From Pleomorphomonas carboxyditropha (GTDB lineage Bacteria > Pseudomonadota > Alphaproteobacteria > Rhizobiales > Pleomorphomonadaceae), in the NCBI RefSeq assembly GCF_002770725.1, contig NZ_NQVN01000003.1:310001-374000 (forward strand): a stretch of DNA of 64,000 nucleotides. The letters run 5' to 3'. Made by a program: the position numbers and the translations under genes. The notes below the pieces were generated by a model. The model had not been told where the DNA came from, ran no database searches, and saw only the letters and a program-made list of their open reading frames with translations. Within the stretch, counting starts at the first letter, position 1. The number at the start of each line of letters is the position of its first letter. Shown piece by piece: positions 53,851 to 64,000 of this stretch.

Positions 53851-54671
53851 TCCTTGCGCCGTTCGAGCACCGGCAGCGGATGCCGGCTCTCGCCGATCTT
53901 CGGCGTGCAGTCGAGGAGGCCGCGCGTATAGGGGTGCGTCGCCTTGCTGAGGTCGGCCGTGGCCAGTTCCTCGACGATGCGGCCGGCGTACATCACCAGC
54001 ACCCGGTCGCAGAAGGACGAGACGAGGCGCAGATCGTGGCTGATGAAGATGAGGCCCATGCCGTTGTCGCGCACCAGCCGGTCGAGAATGCCGAGCACTT
54101 CGAGCTGGACGGTGACGTCGAGCGCCGAGGTCGGCTCGTCGGCGATCAGCAGCTCCGGACCGCAGACCAGCATCATAGCGATCATCGCCCGCTGGCCCAT
54201 GCCGCCCGACACCTCGTGCGGATAGAGGCCGAACACCCGCTCCGGGTCGGCGATCTGCACCGCCTCCAGCATGTCGAGCGCCCGCCGCCGCGCCTCGCGC
54301 TTGGAGACGTTCTCGTGGTGGCGCAGCGTCTCGGTGATCTGGCGACCGATGGTCAGCACCGGATTGAGCGAGAACTTGGGGTCCTGCAGGATCATCGCCA
54401 TGCGGCTGCCGCGCATGTCGCGCCAGGTGGACGCACCGGCCTTGAGGAGATCGACGCCGGAAAACGACAGTGCGTCGGCCCGGACGATGCCGGGCGGCGG
54501 CGTCAGGCCCATAATGGCGCGGCCGGTTTGCGACTTGCCCGAGCCGCTTTCGCCGACGATGCCGAGCCGCTCGCGGCCGAGCTCGAAGGAAATGCCGCGC
54601 ACCGCCTCGACGACGCCGGTGCGGGTCGGATAGGTGACCGACAGGTTGCCGACGGTGAGAAGCGGCGTCAT
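53838..54671 (-). CDS. Dpp-type ABC ATPase D
   Basis: 277 residues: Walker A GESGSGKSQ, signature VSGGMGQRAMIAMML, Walker B LLIADEPTSALDVT. Start ATG 54671 overlaps the permease stop. No C-terminal cysteine cluster. Confidence 0.93.
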   Translation of the reverse strand: MTPLLTVGNLSVTYPTRTGVVEAVRGISFELGRERLGIVGESGSGKSQTGRAIMGLTPPPGIVRADALSFSGVDLLKAGASTWRDMRGSRMAMILQDPKFSLNPVLTIGRQITETLRHHENVSKREARRRALDMLEAVQIADPERVFGLYPHEVSGGMGQRAMIAMMLVCGPELLIADEPTSALDVTVQLEVLGILDRLVRDNGMGLIFISHDLRLVSSFCDRVLVMYAGRIVEELATADLSKATHPYTRGLLDCTPKIGESRHPLPVLERRKEWAA

Positions 54672-55600
54672 CGGCCGGCCTCCCGCGGATCGAGGGCGTC
54701 GCGCAGGCCGTCGCCCAAAAGGTTGAAGCCGAGGCTGACGACCAGGATGGCGATGCCGGGCATGGTGGCCACCCACCACTGGTCGAGGATGAAGCGGCGG
54801 CCGGAGGCGATCATCGTTCCCCATTCCGGCAGCGGCGGCTGGGCGCCGAGGCCGAGGAAGCCGAGGCCGGCCGCCGTCAGGATGATGCCGGCCATGTCGA
54901 GCGTGACGCGGACGATCAGCGAGGAGAGGCACATCGGCATGATGTGGCGGACGACGATGCGGGCCGGCGAGGCGCCCATCAGGCGGACGGCGGCGATATA
55001 GTCGGAGTTGCGCACGCCCAGCGTTTCGGCGCGGGCGAGGCGGGCGTAGGGCGGCCAGGAGGTGAGCGCGATGGCGATCACCGCGTTCTCGATGCCCGGC
55101 CCGAGCGCCGCCACGAAGGCGAGCGCCAGGATCAGCTTCGGGAAGGCGAGAAAGATGTCGGTGATCCGCATCAACACCGCGTCGACATAGCCGCCGGCAA
55201 AACCGGAGACGGTGCCGATCAGGAGGCCGACCGGCGCGGCGATGACGGCGACCAGCGCCACCACGGCCAGCGTGATGCGCGAGCCGACGATCAGGCGGGA
55301 CAGGATATCGCGCCCCTGATCGTCGGTGCCGAGCAGGAAGCCGGGCGAGCCGGGCGGCAGCAGGCGGGCGCCGGCGAGGTTGCCGACGGTCGCCGAGTGG
55401 GGCGCCAGAAGATCGGCGAAGAGGGCGACCAGCACCAGCGCGACGATGATCAGCAGGCCGGTGACGGCGAGGCGATTTTCGGAAAAGCGCCGCCAGGTGA
55501 CGTAGGCGCGGCCGAGCCGGGCCTGATGGCGGGAACGCGGCTCGGCGGTGAGCAGCCAGTCGCGCCAGCTTTCCGGCGCCGGGGATGAGGGATCGGTCAT
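54668..55600 (-). CDS. Dpp-type ABC permease C
   Basis: 310 residues; membrane anchor LLIIVALVLVALFADLLAPH, LLGTDDQGRDILSRLIVGSRITLAV, EAA loop GVRNSDYIAAVRLMGASPARIVVRHIMP. Overlaps both neighbours by four bases. Confidence 0.94.
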   Translation of the reverse strand: MTDPSSPAPESWRDWLLTAEPRSRHQARLGRAYVTWRRFSENRLAVTGLLIIVALVLVALFADLLAPHSATVGNLAGARLLPPGSPGFLLGTDDQGRDILSRLIVGSRITLAVVALVAVIAAPVGLLIGTVSGFAGGYVDAVLMRITDIFLAFPKLILALAFVAALGPGIENAVIAIALTSWPPYARLARAETLGVRNSDYIAAVRLMGASPARIVVRHIMPMCLSSLIVRVTLDMAGIILTAAGLGFLGLGAQPPLPEWGTMIASGRRFILDQWWVATMPGIAILVVSLGFNLLGDGLRDALDPREAGR

Positions 55601-56658
55601 CTGACGCGCGTCCTCGGGTCGAGCAGCCGGTAGAGAAGGTCGGACAGCAGGTTGATGGCGATGAACACCGAGCCGATCATGATGGTGCCACCGAGCACGG
55701 CATTCATGTCGGCGTTCTGCAGGGAATTGGTGATGTAGAGGCCGATGCCTGGCCAGGAGAACACCGTCTCGGTCAGCACCGATCCTTCGAGCAGGCCGGC
55801 GTAGGACAGCGCAATGACGGTGACCAGCGGCACGGCGGCGTTGCGCAGCGCGTGGAACCAGACGATGCGGCGCTCGCTGAGGCCCTTGGCGCGGGCGGCG
55901 ACGATATATTCCTGGCCGAGCTCGTTGAGCATGAAGGAGCGCGTCATGCGGCTGATGTAGGCGAGCGAGAAATAGCCGAGCAGCGCGCCGGGCAGGATGA
56001 TGTGGCGGAAGGCGTCCCAGAGGACGTCCCATTGCCGCGTCCAGGCGGCGTCGAAGAGATAGAGGCCGGTGATGGGCGTAAAGGTATATTCGTAGGCGAC
56101 GTCGAGGCGGCCGGGATAGGCCACCCACTTCAGGCGGGCGTAGAACAGCAGCAGCGACAGCAAGCCCAGCCAGAAGATCGGCACCGAATAGCCGATCAGG
56201 CCGACGATGCGGACGACCTGATCGGCGATCGAGCCCCGCCGGACGGCGGCGACGACGCCGAGCGGCACGCCGAGGCCGGCGCCGATCAGCGTGCCGACGG
56301 TGGCAAGCTCCAGCGTCGCCGGGAACACCCTGATGATGTCGTCCATCACCGGATTAGTGGTCAGCACGGAGGTGCCGAAGTCGCCGGTCAGCGCCTGCCG
56401 CAGATAGAGGATGAACTGCTGCCAGAGCGGCAGGTTAAAGCCCATCTGCTCGCGGACGCGCTCGACGACGGAGGCGGGCGCGCGATCGCCGACGATCGCC
56501 AGCACCGGATCGATCGGCACCACCCGGCCGATGAAGAAGGTGACGGCGAGAAGACCGAGATAGGTGGTCGCCAGCATGACGGCGAACCGGCCGATATTGG
56601 CCAGAACGCCGCGGGCACGCCGCAGCCCCGCGGCTCGCTTGGCGTTTGAATGAGACAC
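55597..56658 (-). CDS. Dpp-type ABC permease B
   Basis: 353 residues from GTG 56658, which has GAGGAG 10 bases upstream; the ATG at 56682 (361 residues) has a poorer site and is the alternative. DppB-like: GRVVPIDPVLAIVGDRAP, LRQALTGDFGTSV, EAA loop ELGQEYIVAARAKGLSERRIVWFHALRNA. Confidence 0.92.
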   Translation of the reverse strand: MSHSNAKRAAGLRRARGVLANIGRFAVMLATTYLGLLAVTFFIGRVVPIDPVLAIVGDRAPASVVERVREQMGFNLPLWQQFILYLRQALTGDFGTSVLTTNPVMDDIIRVFPATLELATVGTLIGAGLGVPLGVVAAVRRGSIADQVVRIVGLIGYSVPIFWLGLLSLLLFYARLKWVAYPGRLDVAYEYTFTPITGLYLFDAAWTRQWDVLWDAFRHIILPGALLGYFSLAYISRMTRSFMLNELGQEYIVAARAKGLSERRIVWFHALRNAAVPLVTVIALSYAGLLEGSVLTETVFSWPGIGLYITNSLQNADMNAVLGGTIMIGSVFIAINLLSDLLYRLLDPRTRVR

Positions 56659-56687
56659 GGGCGGGCCGCTCCTCACATGCACGGATC

Positions 56688-56720
56688 GGCGGAGCTCCGC
56701 CCCCCGAAGGAGGCGGAGCC
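56688..56720 (-). other. Overlapping hairpins between DppA-like and DppB-like genes
   Basis: A 14-bp palindrome GGCGGAGCTCCGCC (56688-56701) overlaps a longer stem in which 56694-56720 folds with a TTCG loop on the minus strand. The two folds are mutually exclusive. No T-run. Probably a 3' mRNA stabiliser for the binding-protein message. Confidence 0.55.
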
Positions 56721-56725
56721 CACGA

Positions 56726-58369
56726 TCATTCCTTGGAGATGGGCGCGACCAGGTTGGTGTCGAACGACGGGCCGAGCCTGAAGCCCTTGAGCTTGGCCGA
56801 ATAGGCCGCCACCTCGATCTGCTGGAAGATCACCACGAACGGACCGCTGTCCAGCACCTTCCGTTGCAGGTCCTCGTACATGGCGGCGCGCTTGGCCGTG
56901 TCCTTTTCGAGCAGCGCCGCCTTGGTTTCGGCGTCGAGCTCCTTGGGATCCCAGGCGTTGCGCCAGGCAAGCGTCTTGGTCTTGCCTTCGTCGGAATTGT
57001 CGGGATTGGCGGTGAAGGTGTCGGCATTGGAGTTGGGGTCGAAATAGTCCGAGCCCCACTGGCCGATGTACATGTCGTGCTGACGGGCGCGGTACTTGGT
57101 CAGCGTCTGCTTGCCGTCGCCGGGGATGATCTCGAGCTTGACGCCGGCCTGGCCCAGCGTCTGCTGGAAGCTCTCGGCGATGCCGGTCACCGGCTGGGTG
57201 TTGCGCGTGTCCATGGTGACGGTGAAACCGTCGGCAAGGCCGGCCTTGGCGAGCAGTTCCTTGGCCTTGGCGACGTCGAACGTGTAGGGATTGTCGTCGA
57301 TGGCGCCGAGCTGGCCCTTGGGCAGGAAGGACTGATGGATCTCGCCGATGCCCTTGATCAGGGTGGCGCCGATGGCGTCGTAGTCGACCAGATACTTGAA
57401 CGCCCGGATGACCTCGGGCTTGGCGAGGTTCGGGTTCTTCTGGTTGAGCGAGATGTAGTAGACGGTGCCCTTCGGCGCCGAGATGGTGGCCAGTTCCTTG
57501 TTGGCGGCCGCCGCGTCGAAATCGCCCGGCTCGAGGTTGCGGGCGATGTCGATATCGCCGTTCTCGAGCGCCAGGCGCTGGCCGGCGCTTTCCTTCATAT
57601 GGCGGTAGATCACCCGCTTCAGCTTGGCCGGCTCGCCGAAATAGTTGTCGTTGCGCTCGAGGACGACCGCCTCGTTGGCCTTCCAGGTCACCACCTTGAA
57701 GGGGCCGGAGCCGGCGGAGTTGGTCTTCAGCCAGTCATTGCCGAAATCGGTGTCCCATTTGTACTCGTCGGACGGCGTCACCGCCTTGGCGTGCTCGACG
57801 ACCACCTTCTTGTCGAGCACCGAACCGGCGGTCGACGACAATACATTGAGCACGAAGGAGGTGGCGTAGGGCTTGTCGACCGTGAGCGAGACGGTGAGCG
57901 GATCGACCGCCTTGACCTTCTCGGTCACGTTGTCGCCGGTGAGGCCGAACTGGCCGAACAGGAAGGCCGGGCTCTTGTCCAGCTTGATCAGCCGCTCGAC
58001 CGAGAAGGCGACGTCCTCGGCGGTGACCGGATTGCCGGAGGCAAACTTCAGGTCCGGCTTCAGCTTGAAGGTATAGGTGAGGCCGTCGTCGGAGACCGTC
58101 CAGCTGTCGGCGATGTCGCCCTTCACCTTGGTGGTGTCGTCGAGATCGAGCCGGACGAGCAGCGAATAGGTGTTGCCGGTGACTTCGGCCGTCGAAAGCT
58201 CGAAAGCCTCGCCCGGGTCGAGGGTGATGATATCGTCGATGGCGAAGCCCTCAACCAGCGTATCGGCCGGCGTGGCGGCAAAGGCCGGGCCGGCGCAGGC
58301 GACAAAGACGGCCATCGCCGCGCCCACCGACAGATATCGCAAATGCTTCACCAGGACTGGCATAGTCAT
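56726..58369 (-). CDS. Dpp-type ABC substrate-binding protein
   Basis: 547 residues, solute-binding family 5. Sec signal peptide (MTMPVLVKHLRYLSVGAAMAVFVACAGPAFA, cleavage near 31), then VEGFAIDDIITLDPGEAFE, YTFKLKPDLKFASGNPVTAEDVAFS and GSGPFKVVTWKANEAVVLERND. Start ATG 58369 follows GGGGAA; upstream in-frame residues are not used. Likely peptide or similar ligand; no sugar gene is linked, and no regulator is adjacent. Confidence 0.93.
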   Translation of the reverse strand: MTMPVLVKHLRYLSVGAAMAVFVACAGPAFAATPADTLVEGFAIDDIITLDPGEAFELSTAEVTGNTYSLLVRLDLDDTTKVKGDIADSWTVSDDGLTYTFKLKPDLKFASGNPVTAEDVAFSVERLIKLDKSPAFLFGQFGLTGDNVTEKVKAVDPLTVSLTVDKPYATSFVLNVLSSTAGSVLDKKVVVEHAKAVTPSDEYKWDTDFGNDWLKTNSAGSGPFKVVTWKANEAVVLERNDNYFGEPAKLKRVIYRHMKESAGQRLALENGDIDIARNLEPGDFDAAAANKELATISAPKGTVYYISLNQKNPNLAKPEVIRAFKYLVDYDAIGATLIKGIGEIHQSFLPKGQLGAIDDNPYTFDVAKAKELLAKAGLADGFTVTMDTRNTQPVTGIAESFQQTLGQAGVKLEIIPGDGKQTLTKYRARQHDMYIGQWGSDYFDPNSNADTFTANPDNSDEGKTKTLAWRNAWDPKELDAETKAALLEKDTAKRAAMYEDLQRKVLDSGPFVVIFQQIEVAAYSAKLKGFRLGPSFDTNLVAPISKE

Positions 58370-58741
58370 GTTCGGGTTCCCCTTTTCGCATACCCGGCGG
58401 TTTCCCCGCCTTTCGGTCGCTCGGCCCCTTCCGCAACCGGGCGGCGGAGCCTTTCGCCTGTTCACAATAACCCCGACGACGCTCGAGCGCGAGTGGCCGC
58501 GCAAGGCGGCACATCTCCGCGGTTACCGGCCGTTGGCAAACGGCCGGCGGCATTGTTTCTGGAGAAAAACTGGTAAAGGCTCGCCAAACGGTGGTCAATA
58601 GGCGGGCACGCCCAATACTCAGGCAGCCGCCAGCGGGCGGCTAGATCGCCGTGCGTCCCAACGGACGCAAAGCGACGATCTAGCCTTTTGTTATCACATC
58701 GGATTTACCGAAAACCGGATTCCACTTTTCGGTCCGATGCT
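58370..58741. promoter_or_regulatory. Spacer upstream of the Dpp operon
   Basis: 372 bases. For the minus-strand operon: TTGACC at 58598-58593, a 17-base spacer, TACCAG at 58575-58570; then in the leader a perfect 9-bp stem CCGGCCGTT/AACGGCCGG (58526-58547). The outer part (58641-58740) is repeat copy 3. Between 58380 and 58520 I see no strong element. Confidence 0.55.
58641..58740 (-). repeat. Two-palindrome intergenic repeat, copy 3 (inverted)
   Basis: Read on the minus strand it has the same order as copy 1: arm A (58740-58697; GCATCGGACCGAAAAGTGG at its start), linker with ACAAAAGG, arm B (58683-58641; CTAGATCG...CGATCTAG). Arm B is complete here, with CTAGATCG at both ends. It abuts the stop of the HAD phosphatase gene (58742). 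Confidence 0.82.
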
Positions 58742-59560
58742 CTAGGCGAGAAGGCGTCCGATGCGCTCGGCGATGGCGTCGGTGTCGTTGCCGCCGATGA
58801 CCTCGCCCACCTTCGCCTTGACCCCGTCGGGCGCGTTGCCCATGGCGATGCCGAGGCCGACGCCGGTCAGCATGCCGAGATCATTGAAGTTGTCGCCAAA
58901 GGCGACGATGTCGGCCGGGTCGACGCCCCGCTCGGCGGCCCAGGCGAGAAGGCGGCTGCCCTTGCTGCGGCCGGCCGGCATGACGTCGATGCGGTCGCGC
59001 CAGGAGTATTCGACGCCATAGGCCGGCATGGCTTCGGCCTCGGCGTACCAGCCGGCGAGGCGGCCGGCGTCGGGATGGGTGACGACGAATTTCCAGACAT
59101 TGGGGGCGGCATCCAGCACCGCCTCCATGGAGGCTACCTGCCGAAGCTGCGGTTTCGGCCGGGTGGACAGGCCGTCGATCCAGGCGCCGAGCTTCTCAAG
59201 ATGCGGCGTCGGCACCTCGTAGAGCATGACGTCGTCGAGGTACATCAGCATGGCGACGCCGTGCTGGCGGCAGGAGGCGATGACGCGGCGGGCGTCGTCA
59301 TGGTCGAAAGGCTCGCCGTTCACGATGCGTCCGGCGGCAAAATCGTAGACGTAGGTGCCGTTGCAGCAGATGGCCGGACCGGAGAGCCCGAGCTCCTCGT
59401 AATAGGGCCGGGTGACCGAGTGGTGCCGGCCGGTGACCAGCACGACCTCGAGGCCGCGCGTCCCCGCGGCTTGCAGCGCGGCGATCGTTTTCGGGCGGAT
59501 GCGTCCTTCCGGATCGAGAACCGTTCCGTCGAGGTCGAGGGCGATCATCCGAAAGGGCAT
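58742..59560 (-). CDS. Cof-type HAD phosphatase
   Basis: 272 residues, HAD superfamily, Cof/YidA type with a C2 cap. Motif I is ALDLDGTVLD (Asp9 and Asp11), motif II VLVTGRHH, motif III Lys in GRSKGSRLLAW, motif IV VAFGDNFNDLGML. Dephosphorylates sugar phosphates or similar small molecules in the cytosol. Stands alone; its promoter region is shared with the divergent winged-helix regulator. Confidence 0.93.
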   Translation of the reverse strand: MPFRMIALDLDGTVLDPEGRIRPKTIAALQAAGTRGLEVVLVTGRHHSVTRPYYEELGLSGPAICCNGTYVYDFAAGRIVNGEPFDHDDARRVIASCRQHGVAMLMYLDDVMLYEVPTPHLEKLGAWIDGLSTRPKPQLRQVASMEAVLDAAPNVWKFVVTHPDAGRLAGWYAEAEAMPAYGVEYSWRDRIDVMPAGRSKGSRLLAWAAERGVDPADIVAFGDNFNDLGMLTGVGLGIAMGNAPDGVKAKVGEVIGGNDTDAIAERIGRLLA

Positions 59561-59757: not shown

Positions 59758-59777
59758 CTATCAATATCGATGATATG
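59758..59777. promoter_or_regulatory. Possible operator at the regulator start
   Basis: On the minus strand this reads CATATCATCGATATTGATA, sharing CATATCATC and GATAT with the site at 60972-60987 before the GH51 gene. It overlaps the presumed ATG of the regulator, which suits autorepression. Confidence 0.4.
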
Positions 59778-60746
59778 AAGATACGAACTTCCCCATTTTT
59801 GAGTGCCTCCTTGAACCGAAATTTTCTCACCCTGCACGTTGCCGATAGCTACGCCATGCTCAAGGGCGTGTCCTCGCCGACCCGCCTGGACATTCTGCGC
59901 CTGCTGCACGCCAAGGGGCCGATGAATGTCAATGAAATCAGCGCTGCGCTCTCGCTGCCGCAATCGACCGTCGCCACTTCGGTACAGGCTTTGGAGGAAG
60001 CCGAGCTGATCGACACCAAGACGGTGAAAGCGAAGAAAGGGCATCAGAAGATTTGCTCGGCACGCTATGACGAAATCATTATCCGCTTCGACGATGCCGC
60101 CGAATTGCCACGCGACGAAACCATCGAGGTTTCGATGCCGATCGGCCTCTACACCAGTTGCGACGTTCAGACGCCTTGTGGTCTGTGCTCGAGCGAAGGT
60201 GTCATCGGCCTCCTCGACGTGCCGAACTTCTTCCTTGACCCCAATCGTATGCAGGCAGGACTTCTTTGGTTCGGGCGCGGCTATGTCGAATATAAATTCC
60301 CCAATAATGCCAAGATACTGAATGAGGAAATCAGCGCCGTCGAGTTTTCGATGGAACTGTCCTCCGAGGTTCCGGGAACCAACACAAACTGGCCGTCCGA
60401 TATTATGCTCTGGGTCAACAATGTCGATGTCGGCACCTGGACTTCACCGGGCGACTACGGCGACAAGCGGGGCGTCTATACACCTCGATGGTGGAAGCTC
60501 GAGGGATCGCAATACGGGAAGCTCAAAACCTGGACAATCTCGCAAAACGGGACATTTATAGACGGTATCAAAATTTCTGATGTGAAACTGGCTGATTTGG
60601 ATATCGACAACCATCATTCAATCCGGATGAGGATCGGCATTGCCGAACAGGCAAAACGTCCAGGCGGCATCAATATATTCGGTCGTGGATTTGGAAATTA
60701 CGATCAAGACATCGTCATGCGATTATATCGATCGAATAATTCCTGA
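59775..60746 (+). CDS. ArsR-like winged-helix regulator with C-terminal sandwich-like domain
   Basis: 323 residues. Residues about 24-108 are a winged helix (LKGVSSPTRLDILRLLHAKGPMNVNEISAALSLPQSTVATSVQALEEAELI). A short segment holds Cys129-x5-Cys135-x2-Cys138, a possible metal site. Residues about 155-320 are beta-rich and aromatic (LLWFGRGYVEYKF, SDIMLWVNNVDVGTWTSPGDYGDKRG, YTPRWWKLEGSQYGKLKTW), like a jelly-roll sugar-binding module. The start is uncertain: ATG 59775 has no ribosome site and TTG 59811 is possible. It precedes the GH51 gene and is AT-richer than its neighbours to the left. Likely controls that gene. Confidence 0.82.
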   Translation: MKIRTSPFLSASLNRNFLTLHVADSYAMLKGVSSPTRLDILRLLHAKGPMNVNEISAALSLPQSTVATSVQALEEAELIDTKTVKAKKGHQKICSARYDEIIIRFDDAAELPRDETIEVSMPIGLYTSCDVQTPCGLCSSEGVIGLLDVPNFFLDPNRMQAGLLWFGRGYVEYKFPNNAKILNEEISAVEFSMELSSEVPGTNTNWPSDIMLWVNNVDVGTWTSPGDYGDKRGVYTPRWWKLEGSQYGKLKTWTISQNGTFIDGIKISDVKLADLDIDNHHSIRMRIGIAEQAKRPGGINIFGRGFGNYDQDIVMRLYRSNNS

Positions 60747-61012
60747 TTTTCTGAAGTAAAAATCTATAAATTGTACAGATATTTGGTCAAATGACGATCT
60801 GTCGTCGATTCTGTTCGCGAAATTTTATTGGCTATATCCGACAATAGTTAAATTCCATCTCACGAAATTCTCTGTATCTGCCGGGAAAAACGTTCCGGTT
60901 CGCCTTTCGGCGAACCCTCGCCTGCGCCGTTGACACGTCATCAGGTACAGACCATAATCTTCGTTATATATCATATCATCAGATATAAACGGAAACGTGC
61001 AGCGAGGCCACC
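60747..61012 (+). promoter_or_regulatory. GH51 promoter and operator region
   Basis: 266 AT-rich bases. TTGACA (60930-60935), exactly 17 bases, CATAAT (60953-60958) is the strongest sigma-70-like promoter in the window. Just after it lies TATATC...GATATA (60967-60987) and within it CATATCATCAGATAT, shared with the site at the regulator's start. GCGAGG at 61001-61006 is the ribosome site for the GTG start. A hairpin CGCCTTTCGGCG lies at 60901-60912. Confidence 0.72.
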
Positions 61013-62521
61013 GTGAAAGCGAACGTGACGATCCACAGGGATTTCACCATCTCCCCTGTCGATGACCGGCTCTACAGTTCTTTTCTCGAACACCTGGGAC
61101 GGGCGATCTACACCGGCATCTATGAGCCCGGTCATCCGACCGCCGACGCCGACGGCTTTCGCGGCGACGTCATCGAACTGGTTCGAGCCCTCGACACGCC
61201 CTATGTCCGCTACCCCGGCGGCAACTTCGTTTCGGCCTACAACTGGGAAGACGGCGTCGGACCGCGCGAAGATCGTCCGACGCGCCTCGACCTCGCATGG
61301 CGCACCCGCGACAGCAACCACATCGGTGTCAACGAATTCGCCGACTGGTGCAAGAAAGCGGGCACCAAGCCCATGCTGGCCGTCAATCTCGGCTCCCGAG
61401 GCCTCGACGCGGCCCGGAATTTTCTCGAATACTGCAATCATCCCGGCGGTTCCTACTGGAGCGACCTTCGGCGCAAGCATGGCTGGAAAGAGCCGCATAA
61501 CGTCAAGCTCTGGTGCCTCGGCAACGAGATGGATGGCCCCTGGCAAGTTGGCCACAAGACCGCCGACGAATACGGGCGGCTCGCCAATGAAACAGCCAAG
61601 GCCATGCGCCTGTTCGACAAGTCGCTCGAGTTGATCGTCTGCGGTTCGTCGCATGCGGGCATGCCGACGTTCCCCGATTGGGAGGCGACCGTTCTGGACC
61701 ACACCTATGAGGCGATCGATCACCTGTCATTGCATATGTATTTCGGCAACGAGGAACACGACACGCTGAACTATCTTGCCAAGGCCGAGAAGCTGGATCG
61801 TTACATCATGTCGGTCGCCGGTGTCATCGACTACGTCAAGTCGAAGAAACGCTCAAAGAAAAATGTCACGATTTCGTTCGATGAGTGGAACGTCTGGTAT
61901 CACAGCCACGAGCAAGATAAGAAGATACTAGAAGGCGACGATTGGCCGGATGCGCCGCACCTGCTTGAGGACATTTACAACTTCGAGGATGTATTGCAGG
62001 TCGGTGGCGTCCTGAATACGTTTATCCGGCGCGCCGACCGGGTGAAGATCGCGTGTATTGCCCAACTCGTCAATGTCATCGCCCCGATCATGACGGAGAC
62101 AGGTGGGCCGGCCTGGAAACAGACGATCTACTATCCGTTCCTCTATGCCTCGTTGTATGGCCGCGGCACCGCCATGAGAGCGATCGTCGACGGCCCGACC
62201 TATGACAGCGCCTTCGGCGACGATGTTCCATTTCTCGATACATCGGTCGTGCGCTCGTCGGCGGGCAACGCCCTCACCTTCTTCATCGTCAACCGGCATC
62301 TTACCGAAACACTCGACCTTACAGCCAGGCTAGACGGCTTCCCGGCCGCCCGCGTGGTCGAACATATCCAGATGAGCCATCCCGATCTCGCTGCCGTCAA
62401 TTCGGCCGCCACTCCAAATAACGTAGTTCCGAAAACGGTGAGCGGATCGACCGTCGAAGCCGGCGTCCTGACAAGCCGCTTGCCGCCGCTCTCCTACAAC
62501 GTCATCCGCCTTTCAATCTGA
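61013..62521 (+). CDS. abfA: GH51 alpha-L-arabinofuranosidase
   Basis: 502 residues, GH51 (TIM barrel plus C-terminal beta domain). The acid/base is Glu172 in WCLGNEMDGPWQ and the nucleophile is Glu291 in ISFDEWNVWYH; both agree with Glu175 and Glu294 of the Geobacillus enzyme. Other family signatures: YVRYPGGNFVSAYNWEDGVGP and HMYFGN. No signal peptide, so it acts on imported arabino-oligosaccharides. GTG start 61013 with GAGG upstream gives the typical MKANVTIHRDFTISPVDDRLY N-terminus. Followed by a terminator-like hairpin and an OppA-type binding protein. Confidence 0.96.
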   Translation: MKANVTIHRDFTISPVDDRLYSSFLEHLGRAIYTGIYEPGHPTADADGFRGDVIELVRALDTPYVRYPGGNFVSAYNWEDGVGPREDRPTRLDLAWRTRDSNHIGVNEFADWCKKAGTKPMLAVNLGSRGLDAARNFLEYCNHPGGSYWSDLRRKHGWKEPHNVKLWCLGNEMDGPWQVGHKTADEYGRLANETAKAMRLFDKSLELIVCGSSHAGMPTFPDWEATVLDHTYEAIDHLSLHMYFGNEEHDTLNYLAKAEKLDRYIMSVAGVIDYVKSKKRSKKNVTISFDEWNVWYHSHEQDKKILEGDDWPDAPHLLEDIYNFEDVLQVGGVLNTFIRRADRVKIACIAQLVNVIAPIMTETGGPAWKQTIYYPFLYASLYGRGTAMRAIVDGPTYDSAFGDDVPFLDTSVVRSSAGNALTFFIVNRHLTETLDLTARLDGFPAARVVEHIQMSHPDLAAVNSAATPNNVVPKTVSGSTVEAGVLTSRLPPLSYNVIRLSI

Positions 62522-62563: not shown

Positions 62564-62701
62564 CCACCTCCGACGTAGCCACAGACCGGCTCATGTCGAT
62601 GCAAGACAAGGAGGCCAACGGGGGAAAACTGAGCTGTGGCCGGATGCCGATGCAAAAGACTGGCCGCGCAAAGATCGATCATCATGAGGGAGGACTACCG
62701 C

Positions 62702-64000
62702 ATGAGACTATGGAGACAACTCCTGGCCGGAGCCGCGCTGGCGGTCCTGGCGGCCACGGCTCAAGCGCAGGATATTTCCAACCTGCCGCGCAAAGAGACC
62801 GTGATCATCGAAAACCCGGAAGGCACAATCAAGAATCCGGGTTGGTTCAACATCTGGGTGAACGGCGGTGGCGGCCTGTCGACAGGGTTGCAGCAGCTCA
62901 CCATGGATACGCTTTGGTACATCGACCCGGACCAGGGCATCAACGGCACATGGTATAACTCCCTGGCAGCCGACAAGCCGATCTACAATGCCGACTTTAC
63001 CGAGATGACGGTGAAACTCAGAAAAGGCATGTACTGGAGCGATGGCGTCGAATTCACTGCCGATGATCTCGTCTATACGGTGAAGACGCAGATCGACCAT
63101 CCAGGCATGGTGTGGAGTTCTCTGCTGGCCGTCAGCGTCGACAGCGTCGAGGCGACCGATCCCTACACCGTCGTCTTCAAGCTGAAAAAGCCGAATTCGC
63201 GCTTCCACGCCCTGTTCACGGTGCGCTGGAACGCCATCTGGGTCATGCCCAAGCATGTCTTCGAAAAAGTGGGCGACCCGGTGAAGTTCGACTTTGCCAA
63301 TCCGATCTCGATCAGCGCCTACAAGCTCAAGAACTATGATCCACAGGGCAAGTGGTACATCTGGGAGAAGCGCGACGACTGGCAGCGGACGCCGCTCGGC
63401 CTGATCGGCGAACCCGGCCCCAAATATGCAGCCTATGTCGACGGCGGCCCGCCGGACAAGAAGACCATCGCCCAGCTAAAGCACGAGCTCGACATCATCC
63501 ACGACAACACGCCGGAAGGCATGTTCACGCTTGTGGACCAGTCGAAATCGCTCGCCACATGGTTCAAGGGCTTCCCCTACGCCCATCCCGATCCAACCCT
63601 GCCGGCGGTCATCTTCAACACCCAGAAGGCGCCGTTCGATAAGGCGGACGTACGCTGGGCGTTGGCGCTGCTGATCGACATGAAGGCAGTCGACCTCGCC
63701 AGCTATCGAGGCGCGGCCACACTATCGGCCATTGGTGTGCCGCCCACCGGCATCGCCATGACGACCTATCAAGCGCCAATGCACGAGTGGCTGAAGTCCT
63801 TCGAGCTTGATACCGGCAAAGAGAAGATCAAGCCCTACGACCCGACGATCCCGACCCAGATCGCCGACATGCTACGCAAGCAGCCAAAGTTCAAGGACCA
63901 GATTCCGACTGATGCGACGGCCATTGCCAACCAGTTCGGCTATGGCTGGTGGAAGCCCAATCCGAAAGCGGCCGGCGAGCTGCTTGAAAGGGCCGGCTTC
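62702..64000 (+). CDS. OppA-type ABC substrate-binding protein (3' end beyond window)
   Basis: Open from ATG 62702 to the window edge, 433 codons, no stop, so the gene is partial. GGGAGGAC lies 8-10 bases upstream. Signal peptide MRLWRQLLAGAALAVLAATA with cleavage after AQA near 22. Solute-binding family 5 features: LWYIDPDQGINGTWYNSLAADKP, MTVKLRKGMYWSDGVEFTADDLVYTV, FNTQKAPFDKADVRWALALLIDM. Downstream of a cytosolic arabinofuranosidase, it probably binds arabinose-containing oligosaccharides. Permease and ATPase genes are expected just past the edge. Confidence 0.92.
   Translation, partial: MRLWRQLLAGAALAVLAATAQAQDISNLPRKETVIIENPEGTIKNPGWFNIWVNGGGGLSTGLQQLTMDTLWYIDPDQGINGTWYNSLAADKPIYNADFTEMTVKLRKGMYWSDGVEFTADDLVYTVKTQIDHPGMVWSSLLAVSVDSVEATDPYTVVFKLKKPNSRFHALFTVRWNAIWVMPKHVFEKVGDPVKFDFANPISISAYKLKNYDPQGKWYIWEKRDDWQRTPLGLIGEPGPKYAAYVDGGPPDKKTIAQLKHELDIIHDNTPEGMFTLVDQSKSLATWFKGFPYAHPDPTLPAVIFNTQKAPFDKADVRWALALLIDMKAVDLASYRGAATLSAIGVPPTGIAMTTYQAPMHEWLKSFELDTGKEKIKPYDPTIPTQIADMLRKQPKFKDQIPTDATAIANQFGYGWWKPNPKAAGELLERAGF

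Follow-up and report, generated by a model that had tools for sequence, protein, structure and literature searches.

In a 64,000-nucleotide stretch of Pleomorphomonas carboxyditropha DNA (contig NZ_NQVN01000003.1, positions 310,001 to 374,000; hereafter the window), a gene for an ArsR-type regulator with a long C-terminal domain precedes a gene for an alpha-L-arabinofuranosidase of glycoside hydrolase family 51 (GH51). We propose, at a probability of about 0.68, that this regulator is a one-component local repressor, which would sense an arabinose-containing oligosaccharide through a domain resembling a carbohydrate-binding module (CBM) and would act at two predicted operators, O1 and O2. The domain make-up of the regulator, its linkage to GH51, and the conserved operator together with its position were obtained by computation. 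The features, in coordinates of the window, were as follows.

59811 to 60746, plus strand: regulator gene in its likely true extent, with a TTG start and 311 amino acids (aa), judged from the frame of the ATG and the conservation of TTG/GTG
59871 to 60014, plus strand: ArsR-type winged helix-turn-helix, residues 33-80 of the 323-aa open reading frame (ORF), by Pfam HTH_5 and HTH_20
60108 to 60743, plus strand: C-terminal domain, residues 112-323, modelled as a galactose-binding-like or CBM6-35-36-like beta-sandwich and proposed as the effector domain
60159 to 60188, plus strand: C129-x5-C135-x2-C138, present in the sequence, not conserved as a cluster
59758 to 59777, no strand assigned: predicted operator O1, C-TATCA-N7-TGATA-TG, core 59759-59775, upstream of the regulator
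60930 to 60958, plus strand: sigma-70-type promoter of GH51, TTGACA-17-CATAAT, 11 of 12 consensus matches
60965 to 60989, no strand assigned: predicted operator O2, TATATATCA-N7-AGATATAAA, core 60969-60985, 10 bp after the -10 box
61013 to 62521, plus strand: GH51 alpha-L-arabinofuranosidase of the ArfA type, NF051901 at 890 bits, with GNE and DEWN motifs
62636 to 64000, plus strand: solute-binding protein (SBP) of Pfam family SBP_bac_5, extending beyond the window end

The co-occurrence of regulator and GH51 was counted in 297 genomes of the window's order (Hyphomicrobiales), with GH51 called present at E <= 1e-60, and larger stretches were taken for 17 of the regulator-bearing genomes. The regulator was present in 43 of the 297 genomes, and in 41 of these GH51 adjoined it on the same strand (39 downstream and 2 upstream), at distances of 73-278 nt; in the window the regulator end and the GH51 start are separated by 266 nt. 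GH51 was found somewhere in all 43 genomes with the regulator versus 11 of the 254 without it (54 of 297 in total), which gave a Fisher p of 7e-42, a nominal value given that the genomes are related to one another. The pairing with GH51 that an earlier sequence-only reading of the window had claimed was borne out by these counts as a linkage conserved elsewhere. Among the best 80 of the 347 regulator relatives found in genome contigs, 66 had GH51 within the available DNA, 13 of the other 14 had an SBP_bac_5 gene, and one short contig had neither; several of these 14 are truncated by contig ends. The GH51 protein of the window scored above the equivalog cut-off of NCBIfam NF051901 (ArfA), which is 625 bits, and it holds E172 in the GNE motif and E291 in the DEWN motif, which we take to be the catalytic glutamates of GH51. 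After the SBP_bac_5 gene behind it, two permease genes and two for ABC ATPases were found, and the first ATPase carries an oligo_HPY region above the cut-off.

The linkage to arabinan-type genes recurred in more distant homologues. In Sinorhizobium meliloti, the homologue stood with CUT1-type transporter genes and a GH51 gene about 4.4 kb upstream of it, and in Roseibium a CUT1-type transporter was likewise present and the GH51 link was kept. In the Priestia locus and in three Deinococcus loci, the neighbours of the homologue were genes for an ABC sugar transporter as well as GH2 and/or GH43 genes (Pfam). Deinococcus taeanensis had a GH2 neighbour and no transporter in the stretch shown, and in Enterococcus raffinosus the homologue adjoined GH43 and a symporter of the LacY type. 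Further GH51 genes were noted: a second paralogue in the source genome (G000:C8:97370-98854), 51% identical and on another contig than the regulator, and the single GH51 match of the same-genus genome G292, also only 51% identical, in which no regulator match was found.

The shared motif that the sequence-only reading had placed at the regulator start and just after the -10 box of the GH51 promoter was found in the form of the 9-mer CATATCATC at 59769-59777 on the minus strand and 60972-60980 on the plus strand, two matches against 0.19 expected, with 2 of 100 shuffles reaching 2. The two sites stood; as the operator, the 9-mer was superseded by a longer inverted repeat of which it is part, TATCA-N7-TGATA, which was derived from the alignment of 12 upstream regions from near loci. 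In the 12 aligned loci the TTGAC before GH51 was kept, with a CATACT-like -10 in many, and the inverted repeat followed the TTGAC; it was perfect in locus L043, where it reads TATGTATCA-N7-TGATACATA. Before the regulator, the exact core was present in 9 of the 12.

The repeat was then counted in the upstream regions of relatives, de-duplicated by shared 8-mers to 92 of 138 for the regulator, 54 of 94 for GH51 and 10 of 14 for SBP_bac_5, the latter two being restricted to genes whose upstream neighbour, no more than 400 nt away, is the regulator. At least 9 of the 10 core positions were matched at spacing 7 in 51 of the 92 regulator regions (0.54 from shuffles), and at other spacings from 3 to 12 in 0-5 loci. 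The corresponding figures for GH51 were 28 of 54 against 0.33 expected, with 0-7 at other spacings; for SBP_bac_5, 5 of 10 regions were matched, with zero in shuffles and at other spacings. When the threshold was lowered to 8 of 10, the regulator regions gave 79/92 at spacing 7 and up to 27/92 at other spacings, and those of GH51 gave 45/54 and up to 32/54. The enrichment of the inverted repeat over shuffles and over other spacings upheld the expectation of a conserved operator common to the regulator and GH51.

In the source genome (5.9 Mb; 5,884,991 bases scanned) the exact core was found once, at O1, and its reversed-pattern control nowhere; the relaxed core TATCA-N7-WGATA was found at three places including O1 and O2, and its control at 1; five other genomes held the exact core at 0-2 places each, four places in all. 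Since the core occurs at so few genomic places, the protein looks like a local regulator as far as its sites tell. A second exact core in genome G154 and one in genome G276, which are alike, were taken as chance, as their settings differ and that of G154 lies over an apparent ribosome-binding site. Two further matches were noted: one of 9/10 at 60566-60582, inside the regulator coding region, and one of 10/10 about 294 nt before GH51 in loci L012 and L013; they could be auxiliary operators or coincidences of the coding sequence.

The O2 core begins 10 bp after the -10 hexamer, a distance that was the same in 8 relatives and was 16 bp in five loci of another group. The spacing was surveyed in 42 of the 45 GH51 loci with at least 8 core matches (L025, L109 and L135 were omitted), and 35 were scorable, as 7 had no scored promoter. 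The operator lay 0-25 bp after the -10 box in 16 of these, overlapped the promoter in 3 and was elsewhere in 16, where for L012 and L013 a tied distant match was chosen, so that their promoter-proximal sites were counted as other. Judged from the sequence, the placement of O2 would be the position of a repressor.

The regulator contains an ArsR-like winged helix, as the sequence-only reading had stated: residues 33-80 matched HTH_20 at 41.6 bits (cut-off 27) and HTH_5 at 38.7 bits (cut-off 22), and the N-terminus of the full-length AlphaFold model was aligned with CzrA (4ggg) at a VIA Z of 12.3 and a root-mean-square deviation (rmsd) of 2.2 over 78 residues. The profile of the TrmB sugar regulators gave 23.1 bits, below its cut-off of 25.6.

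The C-terminal domain, of about 210 residues, had no Pfam match up to an E value of 1, and none of the NCBIfam models reached its cut-off there. The domain was further analyzed in near-relative alignments (A1 and A2; 46 of the 80 contig loci plus the window, 47 sequences, with L096 excluded due to a stop within its translation). In a Pfam search that admitted E values up to 10, the C-termini of the 47 members matched no CBM profile, and the only matches were BetaGal_gal-bd (6 of 47, best 0.049), CatAgl_D2 (2) and S1_2 (1); a sequence profile of the C-terminus had a single match among solved structures, a nanobody at E 1.2. The fold was obtained from AlphaFold models built with the 47 sequences, at a mean confidence (pLDDT) of 75.3 and a pTM of 0.60 for the full-length protein, and of 75.8 and 0.78 for the C-terminus alone. 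The C-terminal part of the full-length model was aligned with the CBM6 structure 2cdo at a VIA Z of 10.8 (rmsd 2.8, 130 aligned), and the C-terminus-alone model with CBM6 2cdp and 2cdo at 11.3 (rmsd 2.7, 131 and 130 aligned). This was followed by a cycloisomaltooligosaccharide glucanotransferase (residues 419-589; Z 10.1, rmsd 3.0, 123 aligned), CBM36 1w0n (VIA Z 9.9, rmsd 2.6, 117 aligned) and CBM35 2w1w (VIA Z 9.9, rmsd 2.9, 121 aligned), and the Foldseek list was mixed, comprising GH115, CBM36 7ay3, lectins, toxin binding domains and BcsB.

The models therefore place the C-terminus in the class of galactose-binding-like sandwiches, with CBMs as the nearest solved folds, and the jelly roll that had been read from the sequence alone was recovered by model and fold search. 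The beta-sandwich is common to the regulator and to CBM6, CBM35 and CBM36, whereas identity to the CBM and CBM-bearing matches was only 8-17%; those modules are joined to enzymes, and here the sandwich is joined to a DNA-binding domain. Many invariant residues fall in the loops 24-49 and 117-135 of the C-terminal model, which have low confidence and would fit as ligand loops. On the strength of the modelled fold, we infer that the domain binds sugar.

The nature of the ligand was approached through Rhizobium leguminosarum 3841, in which plasmid pRL11 holds a homologue of the regulator (65% identity, L113), a GH51 gene and an SBP_bac_5 transporter in the same order as in the window. According to the available part of PMC3333776, the SBP gene pRL110281 was raised in all rhizospheres tested, its mutant was less competitive in the pea rhizosphere (index 0.44), and a putative alpha-N-arabinofuranosidase is encoded by the contiguous pRL110282. 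Gene order, counted from the IclR gene pcaR, which is pRL110286 (PMC4495286, available part), would make the regulator homologue pRL110283. The authors of the rhizosphere study found no induction of pRL110281 on arabinose and proposed import of arabinan or of an oligosaccharide derived from arabinan (PMC3333776, same part). Because pRL110281 was not induced by arabinose, an oligosaccharide inducer is favoured over arabinose by this analysis. That paper treats the transporter and the enzyme of the pRL110281-pRL110283 locus, and the word 'arsr' does not occur in its main text as available.

Taken together, we infer binding of a dimer at the operator, repression, autoregulation, and an arabino-oligosaccharide rather than arabinose as the ligand. 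A dimer of the ArsR-type winged helix would bind TATCA-N7-TGATA at O1 and O2; on O2 it would block transcription initiation of the GH51-transporter genes, and on O1 it would limit its own synthesis. The CBM-like sandwich would bind the imported arabinose-containing oligosaccharide in the cytoplasm, and this binding would weaken the DNA contact, so that importer and arabinofuranosidase would be made only with the oligosaccharide present.

Several observations weigh against this proposal. Some of the 12 loci that defined the motif are also among the operator sets tested; of the four exact cores in the five other genomes, only one is at the regulator (about 30 nt upstream, in G154); upstream of the homologues in Deinococcus, Priestia and Enterococcus the core was weak or lacking, at 5-8 of 10; and where GH51 and the regulator lie apart, in two genomes, the sites before GH51 scored 7 and 8 of 10. 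The regulator was located away from GH51 in 2 of the 43 order genomes (L132 and L133). On the structural side, pLDDT was below 50 at residues 24-49, 89-92 and 117-135 of the C-terminal model, and a VIA Z of about 9.5 was also reached by Eph receptor domains and Cry11 toxins, which have this general fold; the fold alone is therefore no proof of sugar binding. Induction of pRL110281 by arabinan or arabinogalactan is not reported in the available part of PMC3333776.

In one alternative, regulator and operator stay the same and the effector is L-arabinose, or a derivative of it that has been phosphorylated or oxidised, instead of an oligosaccharide. GH51 is expected to release L-arabinose, which is also what usually induces arabinose systems, but CBM-like modules generally bind glycans, and we regard this alternative as unlikely. 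It is also opposed by the behaviour on arabinose of the R. leguminosarum SBP gene beside the homologous GH51 (PMC3333776). We consider equally improbable an alternative in which steric repression gives way to activation by the regulator, or to looping of the DNA from one operator to another. It draws on the Rhizobium group, to which by name 10 of the 16 loci with the operator elsewhere belong: the best site was some 200-220 nt ahead of the GH51 gene and in most cases preceded the best-scoring promoter by 155-175 nt, and with so distal an operator a simple steric block does not fit there, which is a further point against our proposal. In several Rhizobium loci the operator was about 217-221 nt upstream of GH51, and L062, L070 and L115 had in addition a weaker, degenerate site near -36; by the positions of these sites, a two-operator looping arrangement is possible in these three loci. 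Against activation or looping stand the placement exactly 10 bp after the -10 box in the window and 8 relatives, the 16 loci, out of 35, in which the operator follows that box by 0-25 bp, and the fact that ArsR-family proteins are mostly repressors.

It could also be argued that the protein is a metal- or redox-sensing ArsR protein with the cysteine cluster as sensor and the GH51 linkage incidental. The C-x5-C-x2-C segment is present in the sequence, as had been noted, and NCBIfam HTH_metalloreg (NF033788) matched at 44.7 bits; this is under the cut-off of 55 for that metalloregulator subfamily, however, and the segment did not hold as a conserved metal cluster. Among the 47 near relatives (A1), C129 was kept in 39, and C135 and C138 in all 47. 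In a cross-phylum alignment of 11 sequences (four from Deinococcus and one each from Priestia, Enterococcus, Sinorhizobium, Roseibium, Roseomonas, Roseinatronobacter and the window), C135 was the sole invariant cysteine of the cluster: C129 and C138 were both missing in the four Deinococcus sequences and Enterococcus, and Priestia had C129 without C138. Since only C135 is kept across phyla, the cluster was ruled out as a metal site of the family. Together with the recurrence of GH51 and other arabinan-type genes beside the regulator in other phyla, this makes a metal or redox sensor very improbable, far more so than either alternative above, and the local repressor sensing an arabinose-containing oligosaccharide is preferred. 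C135 (60177-60179) belongs to a CG motif that is invariant and that the model places in a loop of low confidence.

The regulator had been read as a protein of 323 residues. The ORF 59775-60746 on the plus strand is present, but its ATG start did not stand. Among ten near relatives, the equivalent of ATG 59775 was absent in one and out of frame with the conserved N-terminus in the other 9, and the length between the ATG and the conserved N-terminus varied; the ATG was ruled out as start on the 9 of 9 relatives having it out of frame. It also overlaps the upstream operator. The TTG at the position of 59811 was kept in the 12 aligned loci (GTG in L046). With the ATG out of frame and TTG/GTG kept, translation probably starts at TTG 59811, and the protein is probably 311 aa long.

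Among the best 80 of the 347 relatives, the closest named ones at the regulator gene were two unclassified metagenome-assembled genomes and Pleomorphomonas. In a phylum sample the regulator was present in 11 of 398 genomes, all from the window's own order or class, and homologues were found in Alphaproteobacteria, Deinococcota and Bacillota as well as in 260 plasmid records, for which the listed annotations were ArsR family, metalloregulator or plain helix-turn-helix. The search of IMG/VR viral contigs for relatives of the regulator matched 26 stretches, of which 0 were confirmed. Three records deposited as phage matched the regulator, and the two examined have genes that look bacterial. Record L157 (OR847195.1, deposited as Listeria phage) has the homologue beside an apparent NAD synthetase, a nicotinate phosphoribosyltransferase and GH51; the latter is a partial frame, 59.7% identical to that of the window and divergent from the homologue, and the fragment had no Pfam match at E 1e-5. 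Record L156 (MT836747.1) has it beside a UvrD-like helicase (Pfam) and ABC transporters. As the neighbouring genes in both look bacterial, the hits were not read as phage genes, and the two records are probably mislabelled bacterial contigs.

Other genes were located around the regulator. Divergent from it are genes for a Cof-type HAD phosphatase at 58742-59560 (288 bits to NF007821, pyridoxal phosphatase) and, at 54668-58504, for another SBP_bac_5 protein together with permease-like frames. Both were beside the regulator in near relatives only; the phosphatase adjoined it in L036-L040, L045 and L007-L009, and not in L041 or the other genera compared. As it is kept in near relatives only, the phosphatase was treated as incidental. 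In L132 and L133, the regulator was found beside amino-acid-type SBP_bac_3 transporter genes, with GH51 elsewhere in both genomes.

That an ArsR-type protein may regulate arabinoside genes has already been proposed in print. In Caldicellulosiruptor bescii, an ArsR-family regulator, ArbA/ArbR, was predicted for the arabinofuranosidase gene abfA (PMC8579813, available part). Like the regulator of the window, it belongs to the ArsR family and adjoins an arabinofuranosidase gene, and its role as repressor was inferred from site position. In contrast, abfA is divergent with a shared intergenic region, while the GH51 gene of the window is downstream on the same strand; the divergent layout also occurs in L157. 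ArbA/ArbR is a regulon prediction, compared here by description, and the available part of the paper mentions no C-terminal sugar-binding domain. The arabinan cluster of Geobacillus 56T3 contains an ArsR-annotated gene (PMC4428132 Table 7, available part) and resembles the Priestia locus in having a regulator, an SBP, two permeases, GH43 and GH2; this gene is known by annotation, and the comparison is by description. The araRS of the Lactobacillus rossiae ara cluster, compared by annotation, is an ArsR-annotated gene among arabinose genes (PMC4855831, available part), and the available part of PMC7125115 makes no mention of ArsR. The ArsR/SmtB repressors CzrA, SmtB and PagR share the winged-helix fold, but their chains are about 86-108 residues long with no second domain of such size, and the regulator of the window differs from them in having no conserved metal site.

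Of the sequence-only claim of a one-component arabino-oligosaccharide sensor from a poorly described class, the one-component regulator was retained, and the novelty was narrowed by the ArsR-family GH51 regulator already predicted. No paper on the pairing of an ArsR helix with a CBM-like domain was found in the open-licence literature, and the family is almost undescribed though its relatives span several bacterial phyla. New here are the CBM-like effector domain, the operator and its spacing, the spread of the family, and the link to the rhizobial locus. We give even odds to the broader claim that an ArsR winged helix joined to a CBM-like lectin domain forms a cytoplasmic class of one-component regulators, spread over Alphaproteobacteria, Deinococcota and Bacillota, by which intact arabino-oligosaccharides are recognised directly. 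If so, a carbohydrate-binding module would have been recruited from the world of enzymes as an intracellular sugar sensor, an unusual way of reading an oligosaccharide on a DNA-binding protein and a possible biosensor part. The ArsR label, which hints at metal resistance, would become a testable sugar sensor, and the homologues in the 260 plasmid records would gain a function. For the rhizobial importer locus reported in 2011 (PMC3333776, available part), the proposal would supply a regulator, an operator and a likely inducer.

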